From Phlegmacium glaucopus (lineage: Eukaryota; Basidiomycota; Agaricomycetes; Agaricales; Cortinariaceae): a DNA stretch of 64,000 nt. The stretch lies in assembly GCA_015039465.1 (NCBI GenBank), contig MU130443.1, forward strand, positions 102,640 to 166,639, read 5' to 3'. Each line of letters begins with the position of its first letter. The stretch's first letter is position 1. The notes beneath the pieces are model-generated. The model searched no databases, was not told the origin of the DNA, and saw nothing but the letters and a program-made list of their open reading frames with translations. A program made the position numbers and the translations under genes. Below, piece after piece: positions 19,987 through 49,040 of the stretch.

Positions 19987-20632
19987 ACAATAATTGTTAA
20001 TTGTTATCATGTGTGAAATATAACTTATCAGTGATCAAAGCATTTATAATTCTTAAATAATGATTATTAACATTTAGATGGATTAGACCATGAGGTCATA
20101 GAAAGCTGACAAGTACACTTTTTGTCTTCTTCACATTATTCTTGGTTCTTGAGTTCTCATAATCTGATTAGGATGTTATTCAATGTTCAGTAGGAATAGA
20201 CAAACATACATAAGCATATGATTGCTAGTAATTGATTGTTGACAGTTATTTGTACATAAAGAGTCAAGGTGGTTTCCATATTACCAACATATATCTACAC
20301 AATTTCTAAGAAACTGATATTACCACAGTTGCCCTAACAAATAGTGGAAGTTCCATAGACATGATATGCACTGGTATGTTCAATAAGCTCTGAGAGTAGG
20401 TTGTATTGCTTATCCTCTTGCCACAGCTGTTCAATATTTGCCATATTGTCATCTGGTAGCATCTCTAGTCCATCCAAAAGGCCATATTCCTCCATAAATA
20501 ACCCACATTGCCTGTTCTTACTTGTAGTTTGGCCCTAAATCATGGATGTTGGCTGGTATACCTTTTGGAGGGCTGTCCATAACCACATCCTGAGGTGTTG
20601 CATAATTTCCAGGTATTTATTGAGCTCTTGCC
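19987..20632 (-). other. Left flank of plasmid, degenerate coding traces
   Basis: The minus strand between 20632 and 20340 shows runs such as EEYGLLDGLEMLPDDN and LLSELIEHT that look like an old transposase-like protein, with stops. I cannot name the family. It bears no resemblance to the R1 repeat that flanks the plasmid on the other side. Confidence 0.35.
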
Positions 20633-22456
20633 ATTAAAAAATCCTCATGATTCCTCACTGCCTCCATGTGAATTGCATTGGCAGTGTGATTTTATAAACT
20701 GCTTTTTAGGACCCACTTTCCTTTGTATTCTTGTTTATTGAATTCAAGACAAACCCAGAAATGAACTTTGTGGGGGGGTATGTAACAATGTTTCTTAATT
20801 AATTTTCCCACCTTTAAGAAGGAAAAGTGTGCCTAAAATGTTCGATATGACACTTTTTACAAGATAAGATAGGGGTAGGTGACAGAAAGGGAAGGATAAC
20901 AACTCTTTTTAATTAATTAGCACAGTCCCCTTAATGAAAAGTTAAAGTGGTCTATATTGGTCGATATTACACTTTTACCGAGATAGGTAGTGAAGAAACT
21001 ATTTACCCCACAACCATTGATTACCAATTGATTACCACAACACAACCAAGGCTACCAAAAATATGATTTGCCTAAACCTAAACTGTGCACACCATAGGGT
21101 ATAGGAACCAAGGTAGGTAAAAAGTTGAACAGAGGTAATTGCATAGGGATAAGTGGAGGGTGAAGTTTTCACGATCTTATCTGGACCTTCTTAATTCGAA
21201 AAGTAAGAATTAGATTTTGCCTGGTTACTCTTGACCCCCACACACAACCATAGTTCTTTGCTGCATTGTTTGATTTTGAATGCGCAGACATTGACACCTC
21301 ATTAGGGATGGACAAGGAAAGAGAACCAATCTTTAGAATTAATATTTTAAATCAAATTTATCTGCATGTCAATTTAAGTTTTTAGTAAACTAACCTTGAA
21401 CTTAAAAATTGTCTTTCACTTAGAATGTAAGGCATCATAGTCTAAAGATGATTTAAGTGTGCTAGCCCCTCACTAAATCTCTCCATTTAAGCTAGATAGT
21501 TTAGTTAAGGTTGAAGTTCACTGACTAGATTCTTCTTTCCTCATTATTTTAACACCTAAACCACACAACCTCTGCTCCCCCATGTTGCCTTTGTTCTTAT
21601 TTTAAGAGGGACTGCGGCTGGAGCCATGGCTAGAGATCCACAGAGCTAAATAATTTAAGGTGTTATAAGAGGATTTGAAGATTCCTATCTTAATATATGA
21701 AGTATGTATGTTTTTATTGATAGATCGGCCCCTGTAATTTTAGGAGCGGACTTTGCGGGGAGGAGGCTAGAATATTTATTTGGGATAATAATTAATTTAT
21801 AACTAACAAAACCTCTGAGGGAGAGCTAGAAGGAAATAAGTTAATAAGCTAAAATATAATGCTTGTTTATTCTAAATTTTTATTGACAGGAGAGCTAGGA
21901 AGAAAATCCCTAGTGTACTTACATCTAATTTTATAAAGAGAAAGTTATGACTGGTTCTTGAGGTTAAATTCTTCATAACCCATCAACCCCCTGTGGGCTT
22001 CAGGCCACTCTTGCCTTTCTTATTTTTATTCTTATATAAAAATAAGAATAAAAACTGCGAGGCTATGAGCAGAGGTAGGGAGGTAAGTGTCAATGCCTCT
22101 AGAGGTAAGAACTAACTTTGGCTCTAATACTATAAAAAATAAGTATCAGTTACATTAAGATATGGACTTTTCGGTTTACTTCTAAATTGAAGACTAATTT
22201 ATATATATAAAGCTACAATGATTAAATTGTTTAACATATGGCCTTACCCTTATCCCTTTGCCCTTTGGTCTCTGCCCCACAGGGTAGGGACTCGTAGCCT
22301 TACAAAGGCAAGAGGGGTGAAGGCTAATTGAAATCCTATTAATCTTATTTTAATAGGTACTAGATTTTATTCAACTCCTAATTCTAGTTCTTTACCGGTT
22401 GCTATTAGTAAGAAAAAAGAAAACCCCAAAAATAAATTGGATAATAGTAGTTATAC
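20633..22456 (+). repeat. Plasmid terminal inverted repeat, left
   Basis: This pairs with 28928-30751; mirrored coordinates sum to 51384. It starts attaaaaaatcctcatg. It contains the ATG of dpo (22218) and the first 79 codons, an internal palindrome (22023-22054) and the presumed promoter and replication origin region. Confidence 0.92.
22023..22054. repeat. AT hairpin within TIR
   Basis: A perfect 13-bp stem, tttttattcttat/ataagaataaaaa, surrounds a 6-nt loop, about 165 bp before the dpo start. The mirrored copy is at 29330-29361 before rpo. It could act in transcription or RNA processing; this is inference. Confidence 0.6.
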
Positions 22457-25400
22457 AGAAAATAAAATAAAATATGAATTTACAAAAATTATTATCCCAT
22501 TCGAAGAATTAACAGAAATAAAACTTATTAATGTATTACTACTAAATTTAAAACTTGGTTCCCAATACACTATATTATTCCAATATACTTTGTATGAAAA
22601 AGGTATACATTTAATGCTAGAGTCTCAAGTAGGTATTAATGTTAGAGAAAATCACGATTTGAATTATTATAAATTGTTGTATTTACACTTATTAGAAAAG
22701 TTATTTTTGATAATGGAGAGATATACAGTTGAAACACCTGATTTTATTACCTTTATTATAAAAGAAATATTTATAGAAGAAGATATTAAAACAGGTCAAA
22801 TATCTAAAATTGAGTTAAGTAAAGGTCTTGTTAAAGTAGGGGAAGTTAAGGGAAACTTTAATAGTAGTGTTTTACCTTTTACCTTCAAAGAAAAATACTA
22901 TGGTTATTTATTACAAGGTAATTTAAGACTTGATTATTTAAGAGAAATAATTGAAAAATTAAAAGATAATAAAATAACTTTATCAATGCCAAATTTAAAC
23001 CAGAGTAGTGATAATTTTAATGTTGTAGATTTTAATAACAATATTGTTAGATTAAAAACTGAAAAGGATCATATTGCGTTTCTAGAAGTAGTGCTTAAAT
23101 CTGAGCTATTTAAAGTGTTTTTATCCAGTAATAAAAAGTATTTAATTATTTCCAGTATGACAAAGGATTTTGTTTATAATAGAATAGTTTTTAATAATAA
23201 AACGGGTAAATTTATATTATGAAGTAGAGATATTACTATTACAGATAATAATTATAACTTTTGATTAAACCCTTCCAAATCTTGAGTGAGAAACATTGGT
23301 AATACTAATGTTGTTTTAAATAAAGATAATGATATTGTATCGTTTATTCAAAATATTAAATTAGAACCTATTAGATACATAGATCATAAAGATTTAATAA
23401 ACCTAGATGCTGAAAATAACAAACTATCTTCTACTAGTGATGTAATGACTAACCCTAATTATGGTGTGTTCGATCTAGAAAGTTTTATATATACGGACGC
23501 TAAAGGAGTAAGTTATTCCAGAGTTTTTGCATTAGGATTTGTTACAACAGCTGGTTATGATCTAACGACTTATTATTTAACAGATCACTTTTCTAATACA
23601 CCGGAAGATTCTGCTAATTTAGTATTGAAGTGTATAGATAATATGTTAGTACCTAAATACCATAATTTTATTTTTTATGTTCATAATCTTGGTCAATCCG
23701 ATGTAGTATTCTTACAGAAAATTCTATTAGATTATAACTTGAATGTAGAAGAAAAGTATATTTTAGAACCTTTATACAGAGACAACCAAATTATAAGATT
23801 AATTGTGAAACTTAAAAATAATAATAAGAAAAAACAAATGAAAATATCTTTTGTGGATTCCTTAAATTTATTAAATAGTAGTTTAGATAATCTATGTACG
23901 GATTATAAAGTTGAAAAAAGTAAAGGTATATTCCCTTATTATTTTGTAAATAAAGATAATTTAAATTATGTAGGTACAACTGCAGATATAAAATTTTATA
24001 ATAAAAATATTGATATTGACTTATATAATTCTAGTCTTTCAACAAATTGGAGTTTACGAGAAGAAGCTTTAATTTATTTAGCTAAGAATTTAAATTCTCT
24101 ATTAGAAATTTTAACCAAATTTCAATACCATTTATGGGAAGATCATAATATAGAAATGACGGAAGGTTTAACTATTTCTAGTTTAGCTAAAAATAAATTT
24201 TTCAAATACTATTTGAAAAATTCTAAAATACCATTGATTAATACTAATAATCTATTTAACTTTATATATTTAGCTTACTATGGAGGAATAACTGAAGTTT
24301 ATAAACCTTATGGACAGGACTTAACGTACCTAGATGTTAACTCATTATATCCTTTCTCAGCCAAAAACCCTATGCCTGGTTTAGAATGTAAATGAATAGA
24401 AAGTTATGGAGATCAAGGTTTAGACTTAGATAAATTATTTGGAGTCTTTCATGCTGAAGTTATAACTAATGATCTTTATATTGGTTTATTACCTGTTAAA
24501 ACTAAGACAGGTATAATATTCCCTAATGGTAAATTTGAGGGTACTTGAACATCAGTAGAATTACAATTTGCTAAGAAATGAGGATACCAAATTAAAGTTA
24601 CAAAAGGGTTCCAATTTAATAAAGAATTTTGTGTATTTGATAAATACGTAGATGAACTATCACAGTTAAAAGATGAGCTTAAAGGTAGTCAACGACAAAT
24701 TGTAAAAAGTTTATTAAATAATCTATTGGGTAGATTTGCACTTAATTTTGTTAAACCTATCACTAAGACTGTTCATCAGACTGAGTTAGATAAAATTCTA
24801 GCGACTAAGGAAGTTAAAACCTTAAAACAACTTAATGATAATAGTTTTATTGTGACATTTGTACCAGTAGTTAATAAAGACATTTGTGAAAGTCACGGTT
24901 TAGATTATCATAAAGTAATTCTAAATGAAAGAAAAACAAGTATTCTCGGTAAAATTGATGTATTCCATGATACTTCGGTGATTATTTCAGCTTTCACGAC
25001 AGCTTACACTCGGGTATATATGCATCAGATAAAATTAGATATTTTAGCTAATAATGGAAGTATATACTATTCAGATACTGACTCTCTAGCTACTGATTTA
25101 AGTTTGAATAAACTTGAAGAAATAATGCAAGAAAGAATTGGAAATAAACTAGGACAACTTAACTTTGAATATGCCGTAAAAGAAGCTTACTTTATATCTA
25201 ATAAAACTTATGCATTATTAGTAGAAGATGGAAAAGTAATAAAAAAAGCTAAAGGAGTATCTACAAATAGTTTGTCTTACTATGATTATCAATTATTGTA
25301 TCTACAATATGAATCTATTCGAGGTAATAAAATATCTAGTGTAATTAATTATTCTAAAGGTTCAGTTACAATTAAAGCTAATAAAATTAATGTTAATTGG

Positions 25401-25514
25401 AATAGTTATACAAAAAGAGAAAAAAATTATAATCTTAAAACAAATCTTTGGACAGATACTAGACCATTATATATAGATAATTTAACAAAAAAGTATTACA
25501 GTGTACATCCCTAA
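22218..25514 (+). CDS. dpo: Family-B DNA polymerase, mitochondrial code
   Basis: With UGA read as Trp (22329, 23220, 23262, 23283, 24393, 24546 and 24579) the frame is open from ATG 22218 to TAA 25512, 1,098 aa. The 3'-5' exonuclease shows VFDLES (D419, E421) and FYVHNLGQSDVVFL. The third exonuclease motif reads YLAKNLNSL, with Asn at about residue 624 where Asp is usual, so proofreading may be impaired. Polymerase motifs are YLDVNSLYPF (D706), KSLLNNLLGRF and YYSDTDSL (D953, D955). The N-terminal 300 residues should include the terminal-protein/priming region of protein-primed polymerases. Residues 1-79 are encoded in the TIR and are identical to those of rpo; they include RFYST, which resembles a presequence cleavage site. 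Nuclear translation would stop early. Confidence 0.92.
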
Positions 25515-25942
25515 AGATATTATTAAATAGGAACCTTTACCCCTAGGAGGGTAGTCCAGTGCTCCTTCAAGGAAAACAAAAAAAAAAAACAAAAAAAAAT
25601 TATTAAATTAGTTTTTAAAACCTTCTTTTAGATTGTTTCGCAAATAAAATAAACAATTTTAAATAAGGTTTTTTTTTGTTTTACTCCTCTGGCTTCTGGC
25701 CTCTAGCCTAGTCGGTTAATTATCCCTAGGGGACACAGGTACGAAGGGGAGGTAAGAGGAATAAAACTTACTAGGCCAGCGAGTGCATTAGCGCGAGGCA
25801 CTGTAAAAAAAAGGAAGTCAGCTATCGCGATGCATAGTAGTAAAGAAAGGACCCTCCCCCCCAAAAAAAAGGTCCCACTTAAAATATTAAGTGAGACCCC
25901 AAAAAAAATATTCTATTTTTATTTAGTTTGTAAGTTAAAACT
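25515..25942. other. Convergent intergenic region of plasmid
   Basis: The region holds long A and T tracts, a GC-richer block near 25680-25800 (cctctggcttctggcctct and related words) and the hairpin listed separately. No gene is seen. Confidence 0.6.
25871..25898. terminator. Hairpin between convergent dpo and rpo
   Basis: ggtcccacttaa pairs with ttaagtgagacc (one mismatch) around a 4-nt loop and is flanked by A runs. It sits between the two 3' ends, where a bidirectional 3'-end or processing signal would be expected. Function is inferred. Confidence 0.5.
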
Positions 25943-26731
25943 CTAATGAGCGATATAAGAACTTTGACTTACATCAATTTGAGAAATTTTTGAACCTATT
26001 ATTGATTTGATAGAAGGATATTTAACCGTAATACAATCTGTATTAGTAATTACTGTAATTTCCCCTTTTTTCTCATTAAATGAAACGGAGTTTTCACTGT
26101 AAATTTTTTTAATAGTATGTATAAAATTAGAATCAAATTCTAGTAAATATTTATTATTTGAATAAATAATAACATAAGCGTTTTTTAATAATTCAGTTAT
26201 TAAATTTACTTTATTACATGGAACAGCAAAACAATCGTGGATAGAAAAGAAGTTTTTATTATCTGTTTGTTTAAAATAGTTAACTATAACAAGGCATAAA
26301 CTAGCAGCATCCAGAGAATGTACTAGATTTGGCATAAGAGCTATTTTTTGTTTATCTGCATTAAATTTATCTTTTCTAGTTACAGTTAAATTTAGCAGAT
26401 TTTTAGTATAACTAAATGGTTTAACTTTAATTGTTTCTTTAGCATAAAATTGTTGTTGTACAACTAATCCACTAGGTAGAATTCAAGGAATAGGTATTTT
26501 TAATTTATTTGATAGGCTAGCAATACTTTTTAAATAGTCTAATAGAGCTGTTAATTTAGGATAATCAATGAATATAACAATATTTAAAGCTTTTCGTAAA
26601 TTTTGGAAATCTGATTCCATAAACACAATAGAAGGATCAGATTTCAATCTATAGATATAATAATTTTTTTCTTATTAACCTGCGGACCTACGCTCTCTGT
26701 AGAAGCCTCGCCAAGGTAAGAGCAATTGTTC

Positions 26732-26770
26732 TGTGTATCCAGCATATCCTTCGTATTCTGCATATCCTTA
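26732..26770 (-). repeat. 18-bp tandem duplication inside rpo
   Basis: The minus strand reads two near copies of aaggatatgcagaatacg back to back. They encode KDMQNTKDMLDT, within a GC-richer insert lying between motifs B and C. Confidence 0.6.
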
Positions 26771-28895
26771 TTTTTGTATTTAAATCTATTGTTATCAATT
26801 TCTAAAGTAACCATTACCTCCCCATTGTCTGTGGGACAGAATTTATAATCTGGGTTTTTCACCTTTTCGAAAGAATCTTTAATATAATTTACTATTGATA
26901 ATGATGAAGCATTATAGGGGATGGTCATAACAGCTTGTTTAATTAGATTTCTATGTATATTTAAAGTAGCTAATTTTTCATAACTTGCTTTTTCCTCTGT
27001 AGTCAATACAACTTTAGAATCATTTAATTGACTATTGAAGAAGTTTTTTAATTTTAATCCAACAAAAGAATAAACATCTTTAGGTACATCATTTCAAGTA
27101 GATTCACTTAAATTTAATTCTTTAGATAACGCTACTTCATCAATCAATAGAGTTAAATGTTGGAAACCGTTACAACTAGCATCTAATTGAATAGGTAAAT
27201 TACTAATAAAGAAGGTTTCTTTGCTATTTAAAGCTTGAATATACTTAATAAATTCGAAACAGAAACTAACAAAAAGTAATTTATTTTCAGCTTTACTTAA
27301 TAAAACACCATTCTCAAAGTTAATAATATCCTCTGAATTATCATTAACTCATGCTATTCTATCATAAAAAGATTTTTTATCTAATTTGTTACCATAACAA
27401 TTAGCTCCAAATATTTTTAAGTAATTAATAGAATCCACATCATTTAAAAATATTTTTTCTCCTATACTAAATTCTAGTAAAGATTTTGCTAACTCAATAC
27501 CTTGATAATTTAAATATTCACTCATACAATAAAGTCTACCTCTATAATCCAATCGCACTGGTATGTAAAAATGAGAAACTACTCTAAAAATAGTAGCTAA
27601 ACCTAAAATGTTTTGTTCCAAATATTTTTTACTATAAAAAGCTTCCAACTCCTTCGATTGAGGCAGAGTTAACTTACTTTTAAAAATTAAAGGATGACTA
27701 TAATTAGGGTTAGTGAAAAAATTATATTTATTGTTGTTTTCTACAATAAAATCTAATACCTTTTCATTTATTTTAAATGGCACTGAATTAATATAATTTA
27801 CCATATCACAGATATCATTATTAGCTAATAAATTACTTTCAGAACTTAATTCCCAATTAGATAAAATAATTTTATCAGTATATTCTATACCATTTAATAA
27901 ATAACCACCAAGTTGAACATATTCTTCAGTATCCCACTGATATAATTTAGGTTTCACAATCATAGGTATTCTATGGGGTAAAGTCATAATGGGTGCAGGC
28001 ACCGCATCTTCCCCTGAAGAACTAGGAATTAACCTTTCTAAATTAGGACCAGGAACTAAAATATTAATTTTATCATCTCTACTAAAAACTTTAAGAGAAA
28101 TTTTTACTAATTTTAATTGTACCATTCAGTTAATTAAAATATTACCTAAATCAAATACTAATTGAGTATCCTCAGTTGATTTAATTAAGTCTTCATTATT
28201 CTTTTTCCACATTAAAAATGAAATTTTAGCCTTCGCACTATTGGCCTCATCTGCACGTGTATTACTATTTTTGTTATTTCTATTATAAGAATCAAGTAAA
28301 TATTGTTTCACTATTTCTGTACCTAAATCCATTGTAACATCTAACATTTTAGTCTGTTTACTTACCTGTTGATTATTAGATATAATACCAAGTATTCTTC
28401 CATATGTAATATTTATTATAAAATTAACATCCAAATTATACATAATTTGTGAAAATAAACTAGACAACTCTTCATCAGCTAGTTTTAAATTAGTTTTATA
28501 ATTTATAACTAACTTTACTAGAGATTTATGTGACTCTACAAATAGTTTTATAATTGCATTACCTATTTTACTATGCACACTATCTCCCTTAGAAACTAAT
28601 TTAGTCTCATTAAATTCTAAAGCCTGATTCTTCATGAATTGTTCTATTTTAAGTTGAGTAATCTCATTAAGAGGTTCATTAATTAAAGTAATTAATAACT
28701 CTCTAAAAATAGGACTAGAGGAATTATAAATAGAATTTAAATTTAATACTCTCGCAGCTACTTTCAATTTATACGTTCTATAACAAACCATCCCTCTATT
28801 CATAGACTTCCATTGCTGTTGAAAAGGCATGCCTCTGGCTAAAAGGTAGAGACAAGAAGACATAGAGAAACTTCTAAAACAGCGACCTCTTTGCA

Positions 28896-28921
28896 GTTGC
28901 CTTTGCAAATGCAAAGGCAAC
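28896..28921. repeat. Perfect GC-richer palindrome next to TIR boundary
   Basis: A 12-bp stem, gttgcctttgca/tgcaaaggcaac, with a 2-nt loop lies 7 bp inside the right TIR edge and within the rpo coding frame. It resembles the mobile palindromes common in fungal mitochondrial DNA. Confidence 0.7.
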
Positions 28922-28927
28922 AGGGAA

Positions 28928-30751
28928 GTATAACTACTATTATCCAATTTATTTTTGGGGTTTTCTTTTTTCTTACTAATAGCAACCGGTAAAGAACTAG
29001 AATTAGGAGTTGAATAAAATCTAGTACCTATTAAAATAAGATTAATAGGATTTCAATTAGCCTTCACCCCTCTTGCCTTTGTAAGGCTACGAGTCCCTAC
29101 CCTGTGGGGCAGAGACCAAAGGGCAAAGGGATAAGGGTAAGGCCATATGTTAAACAATTTAATCATTGTAGCTTTATATATATAAATTAGTCTTCAATTT
29201 AGAAGTAAACCGAAAAGTCCATATCTTAATGTAACTGATACTTATTTTTTATAGTATTAGAGCCAAAGTTAGTTCTTACCTCTAGAGGCATTGACACTTA
29301 CCTCCCTACCTCTGCTCATAGCCTCGCAGTTTTTATTCTTATTTTTATATAAGAATAAAAATAAGAAAGGCAAGAGTGGCCTGAAGCCCACAGGGGGTTG
29401 ATGGGTTATGAAGAATTTAACCTCAAGAACCAGTCATAACTTTCTCTTTATAAAATTAGATGTAAGTACACTAGGGATTTTCTTCCTAGCTCTCCTGTCA
29501 ATAAAAATTTAGAATAAACAAGCATTATATTTTAGCTTATTAACTTATTTCCTTCTAGCTCTCCCTCAGAGGTTTTGTTAGTTATAAATTAATTATTATC
29601 CCAAATAAATATTCTAGCCTCCTCCCCGCAAAGTCCGCTCCTAAAATTACAGGGGCCGATCTATCAATAAAAACATACATACTTCATATATTAAGATAGG
29701 AATCTTCAAATCCTCTTATAACACCTTAAATTATTTAGCTCTGTGGATCTCTAGCCATGGCTCCAGCCGCAGTCCCTCTTAAAATAAGAACAAAGGCAAC
29801 ATGGGGGAGCAGAGGTTGTGTGGTTTAGGTGTTAAAATAATGAGGAAAGAAGAATCTAGTCAGTGAACTTCAACCTTAACTAAACTATCTAGCTTAAATG
29901 GAGAGATTTAGTGAGGGGCTAGCACACTTAAATCATCTTTAGACTATGATGCCTTACATTCTAAGTGAAAGACAATTTTTAAGTTCAAGGTTAGTTTACT
30001 AAAAACTTAAATTGACATGCAGATAAATTTGATTTAAAATATTAATTCTAAAGATTGGTTCTCTTTCCTTGTCCATCCCTAATGAGGTGTCAATGTCTGC
30101 GCATTCAAAATCAAACAATGCAGCAAAGAACTATGGTTGTGTGTGGGGGTCAAGAGTAACCAGGCAAAATCTAATTCTTACTTTTCGAATTAAGAAGGTC
30201 CAGATAAGATCGTGAAAACTTCACCCTCCACTTATCCCTATGCAATTACCTCTGTTCAACTTTTTACCTACCTTGGTTCCTATACCCTATGGTGTGCACA
30301 GTTTAGGTTTAGGCAAATCATATTTTTGGTAGCCTTGGTTGTGTTGTGGTAATCAATTGGTAATCAATGGTTGTGGGGTAAATAGTTTCTTCACTACCTA
30401 TCTCGGTAAAAGTGTAATATCGACCAATATAGACCACTTTAACTTTTCATTAAGGGGACTGTGCTAATTAATTAAAAAGAGTTGTTATCCTTCCCTTTCT
30501 GTCACCTACCCCTATCTTATCTTGTAAAAAGTGTCATATCGAACATTTTAGGCACACTTTTCCTTCTTAAAGGTGGGAAAATTAATTAAGAAACATTGTT
30601 ACATACCCCCCCACAAAGTTCATTTCTGGGTTTGTCTTGAATTCAATAAACAAGAATACAAAGGAAAGTGGGTCCTAAAAAGCAGTTTATAAAATCACAC
30701 TGCCAATGCAATTCACATGGAGGCAGTGAGGAATCATGAGGATTTTTTAAT
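28928..30751 (-). repeat. Plasmid terminal inverted repeat, right
   Basis: Reverse complement of 20633-22456. It includes the rpo start codon at 29166 and ends ggattttttaat before R1 repeat sequence. Confidence 0.92.
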
Positions 30752-30949
30752 TCATCCTCATCCTTGTCCTCTACCCTCAGTCACCTGTTAAGACATTCAT
30801 CCTCCTCACCTCTACTCTTTCCCCCTACCTCTGTGTTACAAGTCAAGGTTATACCTTCCCTAAATGAACAACAGGGAGGCTTTCAACTTAAAGACTAGTC
30901 CTTTGCTCTCTGGTTGGTGTTATATCACAACACAAACAATGATTTATAC
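30752..30949 (+). repeat. R1 repeat 3' end, truncated by the plasmid
   Basis: The stretch from tcatcctcatcc to aatgatttatac aligns with the last 200 bp of the R1 copies ending at 39847 and 46943. The 5' portion of R1 is absent on the other side of the plasmid. Confidence 0.75.
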
Positions 30950-32519
30950 TGGTGATATGATTTAAATCTGCATAAGCATGGTTTTTGCAATTTTTATCTA
31001 TTATTTCAGCATAAATATTATTTAATGCACCAATAACTGGCTAATACAGCTGATAATAAACAAGGGAATCAGAGTTGTCTACCCTACAACTGCTGATTAG
31101 ATCTACTACTGTGTGACCTAAATGCATATAGTTAATAAGTGTGGTCAATAGACTATCATTTGTTACACTACAACTTGCATGTCTGGATTAAAACCAATAA
31201 ATCCATGAACACCCTTATAGACTTGGCACAGGAAAAGTTAAATAAACATTATTGGGTTAGCAAATGTCATGGGGTGTGATTGTAGAGCAACAGAATATTA
31301 TTAATAAATATTCAGGGGAAGGTTGGTGCCCTAGCAACAGTGGAAGCAGAATAACCAAGATAGTGGAACCATGTGATTGTGTGGGAATCATGATGATTAA
31401 GGATAGGGGGAGTGCTGAACAATCATAAAGATTGTTTCCAGGCACAATAGGCACAGTTACCATCAAGAGGGGTGGAAACTACCTAAAATTAGTAACATGG
31501 GGGCTAAAAATAGACAACCCCTATATTTTCAGGAACAATGAGTGCACATGGTGCCAGAACCAAAGTAAAGGTACCAGGAACCAAGTATATCTATTTTTGG
31601 ACATTATCTTGTATTTTTAAATATCTCAAATGTATAAAATACCTCCCAGGGTTTGTAAATAGTCAGAAATTGGATTCTTTCTTTCCCCCCTCATTTGCAA
31701 CCTAGTACAGCTCACTGTCTTAGATATTGAGCAAGAACACTTGTCTTTGAGATTTGGGTATTGAATACAGATCAAATTGCAAAACTACTTAAAAGTTTGA
31801 TCATCCTTGAATTGATCCAAATTATTGTTGTTATTGTGTGTACTAGTTGAAGTCAAAGTCAAAGTCTTGGAAAGGTTATACTTTCTAGAAAACCCAACTT
31901 CCATTATAAGATTGTATAAAGTATTGATTGAGTTATTGTTTTGAGTAGAGATTTTATAATCTTGAAAATACACTTTTTCTCAACAACCTCTGTGCAGTTA
32001 CATCGCTGGTCCAGTCTGGTCTTTGATGTCAGAGCATCAGACCCAGACTGCAACTGGTTGCTTGAAAAGACAAGACCACAAAAGACTGGACTGCAACCAG
32101 CATGGACTAGTCTAGAGCAGTCTTCAATGGTCTTTGGTGGTTGCCAACTGGTCCACGACTGGTTTTTCAACATCAAGACACTTATTAGAATACTATTTAC
32201 TGTGATAATAAAGACATGGAGCCCTTAAACAACTAACTCAGGCTCCCCCAATGTCATTTCTTTCTCCCATTCCAATGAATCAGCATCATCAGGAAGCATT
32301 AGCCACCATGTTGTAGAGGTTGGGCCCCTATGCTGACTTCATCATCATGAGCTGTTCAAAAACTTCTGGTCCCAAGCATGAACAGTGGTCTGTTGCAATT
32401 TGCTTGCTGCCTGAAAATATCTGTGTTAGGGCAACTGTGACACTGACTTAGTCAAGCTAGCAGGTGTTAGGGGACATCTCTGTGTTGGTGCACTAAGACT
32501 TAGGGAGAAGGAGTATCGC
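30950..32519. other. Repeat-derived, no gene recognised
   Basis: AT-rich spacer. At about 31990-32170 there is a dense cluster of short direct and inverted ccagtc/gactgg/tggtc words, like the subterminal region of a hAT-type element. No coding capacity was recognised. Confidence 0.4.
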
Positions 32520-33507
32520 CGGTATCGCGCACCAATACTGATTGGTAGCATGAGAAGAAAGCTTAAAAGTCGCCATCATGAAAATAAGCGGACTTCAAAT
32601 TCACTTACCTATTTTGGAAGCAGCCCTGAATCGTGTTCCTGGTCAACAAAATCATTTGTTCAACGATAACATCCCCATCGCTCATCATACTCTCAATGTC
32701 TCACACTATGCTCTCCATTGTTTTCACTATTGACATGCTCCTAAGCATATACCATCCGTTTGTCCCTTGGCTAGTGATACAACAAAGCAATCAATCTACT
32801 ATTCGCATCGGTCATCGGCTCGTGTTTGATCATATCTTTGGTCCATCATTTCAAGAACGGCCTGTTTATGGACGCATCAGCCACATCTCCCATTATGTCA
32901 AAGGCTTTGTCATTGTTGTTGTGGCTATGGACCCACAAGTCTTCCCCTCAGCCATCTATCTTGCCATCCCTCGCTCCTGGATCTCACTCAGTCCCCTATC
33001 CTCACTCATCTACCTCTTATCTTATCATTCACTGCCAAAACCATCATTCACGCGGTACCTGACGCCTTCCCACCCTCTTTATGACAATTTAGGAAGTCCA
33101 GGAGGATCACGACTAAGCAGGAATTGCAGATGAATCAGCAGAGTGTCAAGTGTTATCAAGGCTGCACGACATGGGACCATGGGCAAGTAGTGTTTTCTCG
33201 GGAACAAGGCTGCGCCTTTCAAGTGTTGACTCAGAACCTTTCATATTTTGACATGACCACACGGCTATGGAGCTGATATATTTTTGCTATTAGGCTATGC
33301 GCACTGCCTTCTTTTCTTTTCTCTTGCACTTTGACACTTGTACAGAATTTTTTATTGTTCCTTCTTCTTTTTCTTGTTCTTTTCTTCTCACAGCTGTCCT
33401 TTCTTCATTCCTCTTCTGACAGCGCGTACTCCTTTCTTTTTTTATTTGTTTTACATAGCCTCATCCTTAGGGTATAAATACGTAACAACACAAACAACAA
33501 TTTATAC
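32520..33507 (+). repeat. R1 dispersed repeat, copy 1 (deleted form)
   Basis: It begins ggtatcgcgcaccaatactg and ends acaatttatac. It matches copies 2 and 3 but lacks about 350 bp near the 3' end. It carries a gggtataaatac TATA-like motif near 33472. The 166-aa open frame inside is not maintained in copy 3. Confidence 0.75.
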
Positions 33508-38377: not shown

Positions 38378-38530
38378 TAACCAGACTAAACATTGAAAAT
38401 TTTAATAGCTTGTTGATAGCCTCCCTTCTAAAACAATTCAACTCAGTTGAAGCCATCTCCAAAAATCCAAATCCAAAAAGCCCAAACAACTGACAAAGAA
38501 ACATCATCTGTCAGAAGTTCCCACTGTGCC

Positions 38531-39847
38531 CGCTATCGTGCACCAATACTGATTGGTAGCATGAGAAGAAAGCTTAAAAGTTGCCATCATGAAAATAAGC
38601 AGACTTTGAATTCACTTACCTATTTTGAAAGCAGCCCTGAATCACATTCCTGGTCAACAAATCATTTGTTCAATGTTATCACCCTCATTGCTCATCATAC
38701 TCTCAATGTCTCACACTATGCTCTCCATCGTTTTCACTATCCACATGCTCCTAAGCATATACCATTCATTTGTTCCTTGGCTAGTGATCCAACAAAGCAA
38801 TCAATCTACTATTCGCATCAGTCATCGGCTTGCATTTGATTGTATCTTTGATCCATCATTTCAAGAACAGCCCCTTTATGGAAGCATCAACTACATCTCC
38901 CATTATGTAAAAGGCTTTGTCATCGTTGTTGTGGCTATGGACCCACAAGTCTTCCCCTCAGCCATCTATCTTGCCATCCCTCACTCCTGGATCTCACTCA
39001 GTCCCCTATCCTCAATTATCTACCTCTTATCTTATCATTCACTGCCAAAACCATCATTCACGTGGTACATGAAGCCTTCCCACCCTCTTTATGACAACTT
39101 AGGAAGTCCAGAAGGATCACAACTAAGCAGGAATTGCAGATGAATCAGCAGCAGAGGATTATTCTCGCAGTGTGTCAAGTGTTATCAAGGCTGCACGACA
39201 TGGGATCATGGGCAAGTAGTGTTTTCTCGGGAACAAGGCTGCGCCTTTCAAGTGTTGACTCAGGACCTTTCACATTTTTGACATGACCACATGCCTATGG
39301 AGTTGATATATTTTTGCTATTGGACTATGTACACTGCCTTCTTTTCTTTTCTCTCACACTTTGACACTTTACAGATTTTTTTATTGTTCCTTCCTCTTTT
39401 CCATTGTTCTTTTCTTCTCACAGCTGTCCTCTGTTTATCTTTCTTCCTTTGACAGCACATACTTCTTTCTTTTTATTGTTCTACATAGCCTCATCCTTAG
39501 GGTATAACTACTGCTCGTTTGTACCAGGATAGGTAGTTCACCTCAATTCATTCTTACTCCCAACAGTCATCTTCTCAGTGGAATTCCAGTGAATTCCTCC
39601 CTCTAAGTTCGCTTTTTCAGTCCCTTACTGTCACTGTCCTCTACTGTCAACTGCTATAGTCTCACCAAAGACTCTTTATTCCTCATCCTCATCCTCTTCC
39701 TTACTCTTGTGTCTCAACCACCTTTCAAGTGTGTTATAAGTCAAGGTTACACCTTTCCTAAACAAACAACAGGGAGTCTCTTGACCTAAAGACCGGTCCA
39801 CTGATCTCTGGTTAGTGTTTATATACAACACAAACAATGATTTATAC
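38531..39847 (+). repeat. R1 dispersed repeat, copy 2
   Basis: It runs from cgctatcgtgcaccaatac to aatgatttatac, 1.3 kb, and aligns with copy 3 along its whole length. It interrupts the second hAT: tgcc lies on both sides. It has a TATA-like motif near 39500 but no long terminal repeats and no recognised domain. Confidence 0.75.
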
Positions 39848-45336: not shown

Positions 45337-45574
45337 CTGGAACTATATAATATCCAGAATAAGGTAATGTGTGCTATTATTTTAAATTTTTAATCCCTGT
45401 GGCTCCTGAATTAAAGTGATGGAATTATGATCAGATTACAGCCATAATGATGGACAATGTGAGTAATAATGATACAATGATTAAATGCATCGAGACTCAC
45501 TGCCATGACACCAGGATTGAATTTTGTGCTGAACATCTGTGAATGCGGTGTATGCCCCACACAATTCACCTTGC

Positions 45575-46943
45575 CACTATCACACACCAATACTGATTGG
45601 TAGCATGAGAAGAAAGCTTAAAAGTCGCCATCATGAAAATAAGCAGACTTCAAATTCACTTACCTATTTTGGAAGCAGCCCTGAATCGTGTTCCTGGTCA
45701 ACAAAATCATTCATTCAACAATAACATCCTCATCACTCATCATATCCTCAATGTCTTCCACTATGTTGTCTATCATTTACACTATTGACATGCTCCTTAA
45801 CATCTACCATCTGTTTGTCCCCTGGCTAGTGATACAACAAAGCGATCAATTTACTATTCGCATCAGTCATCGGCTCGTGTTTGATCGTATCTTTGGTCCA
45901 TCATTTCAAGAATGGCCCGTTTATGGACGTATCAGCTACATCTCCCATTATGTCAAAGGCTTTGTCATTGTTGTTGTGGCTATGGACCCACAAGTCTTCG
46001 CTTCAGCTATCTATCTTGCCATACCTCGCTCCTAGATCTCACTCAGTCCCCTATCCTCACTCATCTACCTCTTATCTTATCATTCACTGCCAAAACCATC
46101 ATTCACACGGTACCTGAAGCCTTCCCACCCTCTTTATGACAATTTAGGAAGTCCAGGAGGATCACAACTAAGCAGGAATTGCAGATGAATCAGCAGCAGA
46201 GGATTATTCTCGCAGAGTGTCAAGTGTTATCAAGGCTGCGCGACATGGGACCATGGGCAAGTAGTGTTTTCTCGGGAACAAGGCTGCGCCTTTCAAGTGT
46301 TGACTCAGGACCTTTCACATTTTTGACATGACCACATGCCTATGGAGTTGATATATTTTTGCTATTGGACTATGTACACTGCCTTCTTTTCTTTTCTCTC
46401 GCACTTTGACACTTTACAGATTTTTTTATTGTTCCTTTTTCTTTTCCATTGTTCTTTTCTTCTCGCAGCTGTCCTCTCTTTATCTTTCTTCCTTTGACAG
46501 CGCATACTTTGTTTCTTTTTATTGTTTTACATAGCCTCATCCTTAGGGTATAAATACTGCTCTTTTGTACCAGGATAGGTAGTTCAGTGCAGTTCAATTC
46601 ATTCTTACCCCCCACTTTCATCATCTCAGTGGAATTCCAGTGAATTCCTTCCTTAAGTTCCCTTTTTCAGTCCCTTACTGTCACTGTCCTCTACTGTCAA
46701 CCACTATAGTCTCACTGAAGACTCTTTCTTACCCATCCTCATCCTCATCTTCTACCTCATTCATCTTCCAAGACCTTCATCCTCATCCTCCTCCTTCTCT
46801 TCTCTATTCTTTCCCCTTACCTCTGTGTGTTAAAAGTCAAGGTTATACCTTCCCTAAACAAACAACAGGGAGTCTCTTGACCTAAGGTCTGGTCCACTGC
46901 TCTCTGGTTGGTGTTTATATACAACAACAACAATGATTTATAC
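45575..46943 (+). repeat. R1 dispersed repeat, copy 3 (full length)
   Basis: 1,369 bp. It is inserted between CMPHTIHLA and TIK of the second hAT transposase, with actatc to the left and accatc to the right. It has a gggtataaatac promoter-like motif near 46547, followed by pyrimidine-rich sequence. I see neither LTR-type direct repeats nor TIRs. Confidence 0.75.
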
Positions 46944-49040
46944 CACCATCAAAGGTATGCTTGCTTCATTTTTAACAACTTGAGTCTAATCCTTTTATTT
47001 AGTTACTTGAAGGAATTGGTCTAATATCAAAAGGCAACTTGCAGGTGAGGGCCATTGCTACACATGGCATATATGAGTCCATATCACCCACTAAGATATA
47101 ATAATAATAATTTTAAGTTGTACATGCTAGCCAACTTTTTGTTATCTGTTTTTTTCTAGTATTAGATCTTATTTAAAATTCCACAAAATCAAACAGCTTG
47201 AACCATAACTATTAAGCACAAATGCAAAACACTGCAGATGCTGACCCAGGGCACAATGTGAGTTCTGGACAGCTCAGAAGTGAGCATGAGTAGAACAATT
47301 GGGAACCAATCAAGCCATCATAAAACCAAACCCGCTCACCAGCAATAATATTTGAGATAAAATGCTGGTCTGCATTTTTTGTAGTATACAACACTGGCTA
47401 GGTGGGTTTCATCAGTCCAATAAACAAGGTGTCAAGCATTTTTTGACCTTTAGAACCAGTCTTTGATTGCCACCTACTACATATCCCTCTTGACCCCTTA
47501 CCATCAACAGCATTGATGACAGCTCATCATCATATTGTTAATTAACTAAAATTCACTGTTGATCAGCATTGATAAAAAACTCAGTCCTAAAATGGTCACA
47601 TGTAAGAACATGTGACATCCATCATGGGAATTGCCAGCTACTCAACCATTACAAGTTGAAAAGTGAAGGCCTGCATAAAAGAACAATTCCCATAAATGGG
47701 ACTTGTAACAGCAATCTAGCTACAATGTCATGTTTCAATTTCCAAGATGACATCAATGCAGGACTTGAATGTGAAAATGATTTGCAAGTTGCGCCCAAAG
47801 ACAGTGAACCAGATGATGAACAGAATGGCACAGAACATTCAGAAAAAATCCACATGGCAATTCAAAAGGTTTTTTTTATTAATTATTAATTTTTTCATTG
47901 TATACTCATAAAATTGTCAGCTTTGCAAGATTGTAAGATCTGTGCGCTCAAGTCCTCAACACTGTCAGCATTGGAATGGAGAGGTTGAAAGGATGAATGC
48001 CCAACTCAATGTCACAGAATGCAGAGCTATTCTTATGCTCATCCTCAATGTGAAAACCCATTGGTCATTGTTGATTATCGTAAATCAGTTAATTCTTTGT
48101 TTGTCCACCTTCATACCAATTTATGGCTATACCTGCTCTCCAATGAAGAATGGGATGCTATTGTCAATTGAACCTGTTGCATTGTGGCTCAATACATTCC
48201 GCTCCACTACAACACAAATGTCAGCCACCAAAAAACCCATGCTCCCAACCACACATGCAATATTCTGTGGCCTTCAAGATGAAATTTGGAAGATCATCCA
48301 AACTCTCCCACCTTCAACATCACCACACCTCATAAAGGGACTCATGGATGCTCATCGCAAGCTCAGTGATTACTATTATACATTCAATCAATCACCATTT
48401 TATATTTGGTCTTTGTGTGAGTGCCTACTTAATGAGTGCTTGACTATGATACTAATTAAATTCTACATTTATTTAGTTTTGGACCCTCACATTTTATATG
48501 CAGCATTGAAAGATGAATTTACAGATGACCCAGATCCTGCTGACCACCTTGAGGAGGCCAAAGCCAAACTTCAAACATATTTTAATGAACATTATCCATC
48601 TCCAAGTCCTTGTGCTGGCTCTTCATTGCCCACCACTGCAGACCCTTCCCTTTCTTCAGTTACATCTTCTATGTCAAGTACCTCAAGTTCTTTAGGGTCA
48701 CCTCAGAAAATTTTCACAGCAAGGTTTCAATGCAAACATGCCTCTCCAGATGAATTACTTGAATTCTGGAGTTTACCTCAGGAAGATTTTAAAACAATTG
48801 ACCCGCTTCAGTGGTGGCTAGGGCAATGTGCGCAATTTCCTCAACTCTACTGTCTTGCTCGTGATATTTTCTCTATTCCAGGTATGTCATTATTATAATT
48901 CACTTTATCCAAGACTCATTTTTTGTACAGGATAAGCTGTTGCTGTTGAATGGATCTTTTCCGGTGGGGGGGATACTATTTCCCTTCACCATGCTAGTCT
49001 CAACCGAGGCACTACAGAATCAGAGACAAGGAGACAAATG
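46944..49040 (+). pseudogene. Second hAT transposase, C-terminal half
   Basis: An open frame at 47942-48898 includes TMSATKKPMLPTTHAIFCGL, MDAHRKLSDYYY, LDPHILYAALKDEF and DPLQWWLGQCAQFPQLYCLA. A decayed hATC follows near 48925-49020 (AVAVEWIFS, SGGGYYFPSP-type frame change). The region before 47940 is intron or decayed. Confidence 0.65.

Follow-up and report, generated by a model that had tools for sequence, protein, structure and literature searches.

Known plasmid integrations and the present locus

Around invertrons integrated in mitochondrial DNA (mtDNA), the target has been newly repeated in inverted (and, over short lengths, direct) orientation, possibly via panhandle intermediates, and their integration has been judged a repair error that needs no homology (PMC1864894, excerpts). 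The long flanking inverted repeats were deduced from restriction patterns, their endpoints being left undetermined, and at sequence level only short duplications, direct and inverted, were established, in two Podospora strains (same excerpts). For the mtDNA of Termitomyces, excerpts of PMC6609731 state that plasmid insertion involves expansion of the plasmid repeats. Mitochondrial linear plasmids are also found in nuclear assemblies, from which Wei et al. (2023) listed 95 complete elements with two terminal repeats in plants and fungi (PMC10583447, excerpts). Here we analyzed such an element in Phlegmacium (Cortinarius) glaucopus, apparently a full-length linear plasmid of mitochondrial type inside a nuclear contig, which probably integrated together with a fold-back inverted copy of 138 bp of its nuclear target (we put the probability of this reading at about 0.62). 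The window, i.e., the whole stretch analyzed, has 64,000 nucleotides and corresponds to bases 102640–166639 of contig C158 in an assembly of 60.5 Mb and 259 contigs.

Like the linear mitochondrial plasmids of Agaricales, the element has an opposed pair of genes for a type B DNA polymerase (dpo) and a T7-like RNA polymerase (rpo), terminal inverted repeats and the mould mitochondrial code; unlike them, it lies in a nuclear contig and its rpo is split between two frames. In Agrocybe aegerita, an inverted duplication of nad4 reportedly surrounds a linear plasmid, going by the title of a 2008 work by Ferandon; the inverted target duplication on both sides would be as here, but in mtDNA. The Podospora plasmid pAL2-1 and the Neurospora plasmid kalilo were likewise inserted between inverted copies of the target (PMC1864894, excerpts), yet their target was mtDNA, whereas in P. 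glaucopus it is nuclear and 138 bp long, and one side has been shown to be native. The ends of the elements of Wei et al. were set by an automatic repeat finder, and the excerpts of that survey mention no target duplication. Since such plasmids are reported there from nuclear assemblies, the location is not unprecedented, and the original prediction, made from the DNA letters of the window, that a full-length nuclear copy would be unusual is not supported (PMC10583447, excerpts). An inverted duplication of nuclear target DNA by a mitochondrial plasmid was not found reported among the open-access papers listed and read, supplements aside.

Arms of the element and their outer 138 bp

The element is bounded by two inverted arms, 20633–22456 and 28928–30751, of 1,824 nt each. 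They match without a single mismatch, as had been predicted, the pairing ends at once both outward and inward, and the arms enclose 6,471 nt. The original prediction regarded the arms as plasmid throughout and accordingly drew the plasmid from 20633 to 30751. Both points need correction, as each arm is nuclear in its outer 138 bp and the plasmid proper occupies approximately 20771–30613. The parts of the locus, in window coordinates, are as follows:

20364..20632, minus strand: native continuation of a repeat-gene relic in the left flank; the match to protein P0072 runs through the arm tip
20633..20770, minus strand: native nuclear DNA beside the plasmid, part of the repeat-gene relic by paralogue and P0072 matches
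20771..30613, 9,843 bp: plasmid proper, proposed limits; homology to three nuclear paralogues ends at 20770 and a seven-G run lies at 20772–20778
20771..22456, plus strand: left terminal inverted repeat, plasmid part, 1,686 bp
28928..30613, minus strand: right terminal inverted repeat, plasmid part, 1,686 bp
30614..30751, plus strand: the 138-bp nuclear segment copied in inverted orientation beyond the right end of the plasmid, equal to 20633–20770 reversed; the right flank does not continue the relic
30752..30949, plus strand: 3′ end of a long repeat resembling a long terminal repeat (LTR), cut at the join; full copies at 38530–39847 and 45574–46943

When the arm was searched against the entire assembly, the matches besides both arms were three paralogues (on contigs C208, C76 and C135) and one 44-base match, all six of the six candidates being scored. 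The paralogue matches, at 79–84%, cover parts of the outer 138 bp, and all three end at base 20770. Up to this point C208 and C76 are identical at 104 of 107 positions and the window agrees with them at 84 of 107; beyond it, the two paralogues still share 67 of 70 positions, and the window retains 14–15 of 70. An ungapped comparison of the window with C135 gave 73/107 before and 11/70 after the same base, while C135 itself, compared without gaps, continues to resemble both C208 and C76 (48/70 each). As the paralogues stay alike where the window diverges, the repeat evidently goes on at nuclear sites and the window passes from it to the plasmid, whose side of the 20770/20771 boundary begins with TGGGGGGG. 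No Pfam family was obtained for the relic repeat gene.

The native side of the duplicated segment

The two sides were told apart by a conceptual translation that started in the plasmid, crossed the arm tip and went on into the left flank, stops being written as X; it was searched against proteins of 0.55–1.75 times the query length. One protein was found by this outward translation, P0072 (188 residues, source jgi, E 6.5e-22), and the alignment, with 52 of 111 residues identical, crosses the arm tip at residue 46 and proceeds into the left flank. The left flank alone (600 bases, containing no arm base) scored 161 against P0072, a value reached by 0 of 1000 shuffles (maximum 57). The right flank alone scored 30, which 814 of 1000 shuffles also reached, and was rejected as the native continuation. 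Hence, the left 138 bp are the native ones and the right 138 bp the inverted copy, so that the target stands inverted on both sides of the plasmid, as in invertron integrations with inverted target duplication. The paralogues on C208, C76 and C135 extend by 0 bases into either flank, and a protein search of the fungus's own genome gave matches reaching query residues 52, 58 and 65 at the three paralogues, too short to be used. No empty allele was found in the assembly; the left flank (20324–20632) matched nothing else there, among the best 40 of 198 candidates.

These data also bear on another origin of the symmetry, in which the plasmid would already have borne the 138 bp at both tips, as a nuclear fragment that it had captured and that copying had made symmetric, before inserting bluntly. 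Both arms ending at the same base and the continuation of the three-paralogue sequence in neither flank would agree with this. The left flank, though, is by the P0072 match the natural continuation of the 138 bp, which is not expected from a blunt insertion, and we regard pre-formed tips as very improbable.

Plasmid type, polymerase genes and UGA codons

The assignment to the invertron-type mitochondrial linear plasmids relies on long terminal inverted repeats, exact over 1,686 bp, a type B DNA polymerase of the organellar/viral kind, a T7-like RNA polymerase on the opposite strand, though not as one intact frame, and UGA read as tryptophan. The Pfam matches bear out the predicted dpo and rpo, and the predicted AT-rich composition was also found, the GC content being 29% in 20771–30613 compared to 34–50% per kb in the flanks. 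The genes are:

22218..25514, plus strand: dpo, type B DNA polymerase, 1,098 aa in code 4, the first 80 aa in the repeat; Pfam DNA_pol_B_2 (PF03175), E 8e-79
26584..29166, minus strand: rpo, first frame, T7-like RNA polymerase; Pfam RNA_pol (PF00940), 5.4e-37; holds DASCNGFQH and RNLIKQAVMTIPYN
25943..26671, minus strand: rpo, second, adjoining frame; Pfam RNA_pol (PF00940), 6e-24; holds HDCF

A Polinton was considered and rejected, PF03175 and PF00940 being the sole families above cut-off in the four plasmid open reading frames (ORFs) scanned, a set leaving aside the shorter ORFs antisense to dpo and rpo, with no retroviral-type integrase or capsid among them. Both genes start inside the arms and face each other, and their first 80 residues, encoded in the repeat (22218–22456 and 28928–29166), are identical. 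The stretch GTRFYST in this common head resembles a mitochondrial import signal, and DASCNGFQH and RNLIKQAVMTIPYN in the first rpo frame are two polymerase motifs.

The dpo reading frame stays open through 1,098 codons, with no internal TAA or TAG, and 23 relatives of its product were found at E ≤ 0.001. The nearest species-named relatives of the plasmid polymerases are Termitomyces DNA and RNA polymerases, two of the DNA polymerases being 54 and 62% identical to dpo in one alignment and 55 and 58% in another; we infer from PMC9925561 that these are plasmid genes. A further database entry, P0002, is 74% identical, and its contig is the first candidate for a free plasmid in P. glaucopus or a related species. 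The database protein P0001 (hypothetical protein BYT27DRAFT_7224747 of P. glaucopus, 758 residues) is 99% identical to the window dpo where aligned, with local alignment giving 77% identity over 88% of the query, and is taken as a standard-code gene model of the same dpo locus. Two pattern scans of IMG/VR for relatives of the plasmid yielded 19 and 32 matches, none of which was confirmed. The assembly searches found no other long copy of the plasmid. A separate dpo-like scrap lies at C166:205950–206029 (80 bp at 97.5% plus 23 bp exact, window counterpart 24372–24506), so plasmid-like DNA is also present elsewhere in the assembly. Furthermore, a 40-base plasmid-like match at 90% was seen at C223:217940–217979, and a 44-base piece of the plasmid repeat (window 22037–22080) recurs at 91% at C8:118223–118265.

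The predicted number of 12 in-frame UGA codons was reproduced, with seven in dpo, four in rpo before the frame change and one in the second rpo frame; a fifth UGA of the first rpo frame lies beyond the frame change, and the UGA at codon 38 of dpo and of rpo is one repeat codon met in both genes. The codons, numbered in dpo and the first rpo frame, were compared with 11 relatives for dpo and 10 for rpo. Tryptophan occupies dpo position 777 in 11/11 and position 726 in 9/11 relatives, and rpo positions 606 and 691 in 10/10 and 9/10, respectively. At dpo 356 tryptophan was present in 4/11 and phenylalanine in 7/11, and at rpo 347 the relatives had tryptophan (4/10), phenylalanine (5/10) or, once, leucine. 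No support for tryptophan came from dpo positions 38, 335, 349 and 788, variable or gapped among the 11 relatives, or from rpo 38. The rpo frame change falls at or near an A run, inside a stretch of varying length among ten relatives, and may be a true mutation or a homopolymer consensus error. The inserted copy is probably non-functional, since both genes meet UGA stops in the nuclear code and rpo is divided between two frames.

The joins and the proposed origin

On the evidence of nuclear domains and repeats on each side of the plasmid within one contig, the contig is nuclear, and the predicted nuclear-type surroundings were thereby recovered as nuclear families and genome-wide repeats on both sides. 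The right arm tip abuts the cut 3′ end of the long repeat, which occurs as four copies or pieces in the same orientation (38530–39847, 45574–46943, 32519–33481 and 30752–30949), the piece at 32519–33481 being without its 3′ part and that at 30752 without its 5′ part. From their spacing these long repeats are probably LTRs, and the LTR-like pair near the plasmid is 87.5% identical.

It is at these joins that an assembly or library artefact has to be weighed, in which chimeric reads or an erroneous overlap would have placed a free mitochondrial plasmid within a nuclear contig. Wrong joins classically arise at long identical arms, and the joins are known from the assembly. The paper covering P. 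glaucopus drew on several sequencing methods and assemblers for its genomes, the excerpts naming none for this species in particular, and assembled mitochondrial genomes separately (PMC7550596, excerpts). A wrong join through the repeat, in contrast, should have brought in the reversed left flank without limit, and not 138 bp followed by an unrelated repeat; the two flanks have no base in common beside the arm tips, and the window is without any N. Overall, an artefact is an unlikely explanation, albeit one to be taken seriously.

Integration with fold-back copying, as judged from the anatomy of the assembled locus, would have proceeded in the following way. The left plasmid end would have joined a broken chromosome end at about 20770/20771, inside the old repeat-gene relic. 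By analogy, we infer a terminal protein on the 5′ end of the plasmid; protein-capped ends, as in protein-primed replication, leave the 3′ strand free for copying. With this 3′ strand free, the right end could then have paired with the identical left repeat by fold-back or strand invasion; extended across the junction, it would have copied 138 bp of chromosome before coming off, whereupon the freed end would have been connected to the truncated LTR-like sequence to its right. Both joins would then exist in the organism. Such a sequence of joining, folding back and copying would leave both arms identical at birth.

The same final anatomy would also be produced by a simple insertion, if later recombination or conversion between the repeats had spilled past one junction and overwritten the other side with 138 bp, and the exactness of the arms suits this as well. 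It needs a second event, moreover one ending in a join to an unrelated repeat, and the paralogue sequence past the junction matches nothing in the window; we consider later conversion quite unlikely.

Several points weigh against integration with fold-back copying as described. The inner boundary at 20770 rests on lost paralogue homology, so the nuclear part could exceed 138 bp; the boundary may lie further in because a second divergence of these paralogues from the relic occurs close to the arm tip. That the arm tip coincides with this point of divergence is unexplained. The case for the native side hangs on a single protein, P0072. Lastly, both joins come from the assembly of one individual.

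With 0 differences in 1,824 nt, the 95% upper bound on arm divergence is ~0.16% (3/1824). Since the arms are exact compared to 87.5% identity in the LTR-like pair, the insertion seems far younger than the DNA around it, provided that neither conversion nor the assembler keeps the arms alike. The gap-free pairing had been predicted to imply a very recent event, ongoing conversion or an assembly join; to these, fold-back copying plus a young age can be added, which can explain it too.

Surroundings of the element

Pfam families were obtained for 4 of the 8 flank ORFs scanned, namely a protein kinase and DUF899 in the left flank and hAT (47915–48895) and aldehyde dehydrogenase in the right one. 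The hAT relics predicted on both sides were consequently recovered on the right, while the two left ORFs gave no family. Repeats of the flanks occur again at dozens of sites in the assembly. A 1.9-kb region is repeated at 87% on each side of the plasmid (12211–14127 and 51271–53204), 39 kb apart and in the same orientation; its ORFs, by eye, are more like a duplicated gene than a transposon. The R1 relics of the original prediction were not confirmed, this paired region having been judged by eye only. The cox1 family had no match above cut-off anywhere in the assembly, its sole match being a 37-position cox1-like scrap below the family cut-off at C195:418580–418690, and no tRNA was found within the window using bacterial settings.

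Implications

Compared to the inference from restriction patterns in mtDNA, the nuclear case of P. glaucopus gives the outer endpoint to the base as well as the native side. The flipped piece of neighbouring nuclear DNA hints at how such plasmids insert, and the locus offers a testable model for genome insertion of protein-primed linear DNA. To automatic repeat finders, copied host DNA will pass as part of the plasmid, a point relevant to the host-derived domains reported in such plasmids (PMC10583447, excerpts). As a tentative idea, somewhat short of even odds, the same fold-back reaction as in mitochondrial integration may also run in the nucleus, in which case it would belong to the protein-capped ends and identical repeats of the plasmid rather than to mitochondrial repair. 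If this is true, protein-capped plasmids could reach nuclei intact and carry flipped host DNA while inserting.
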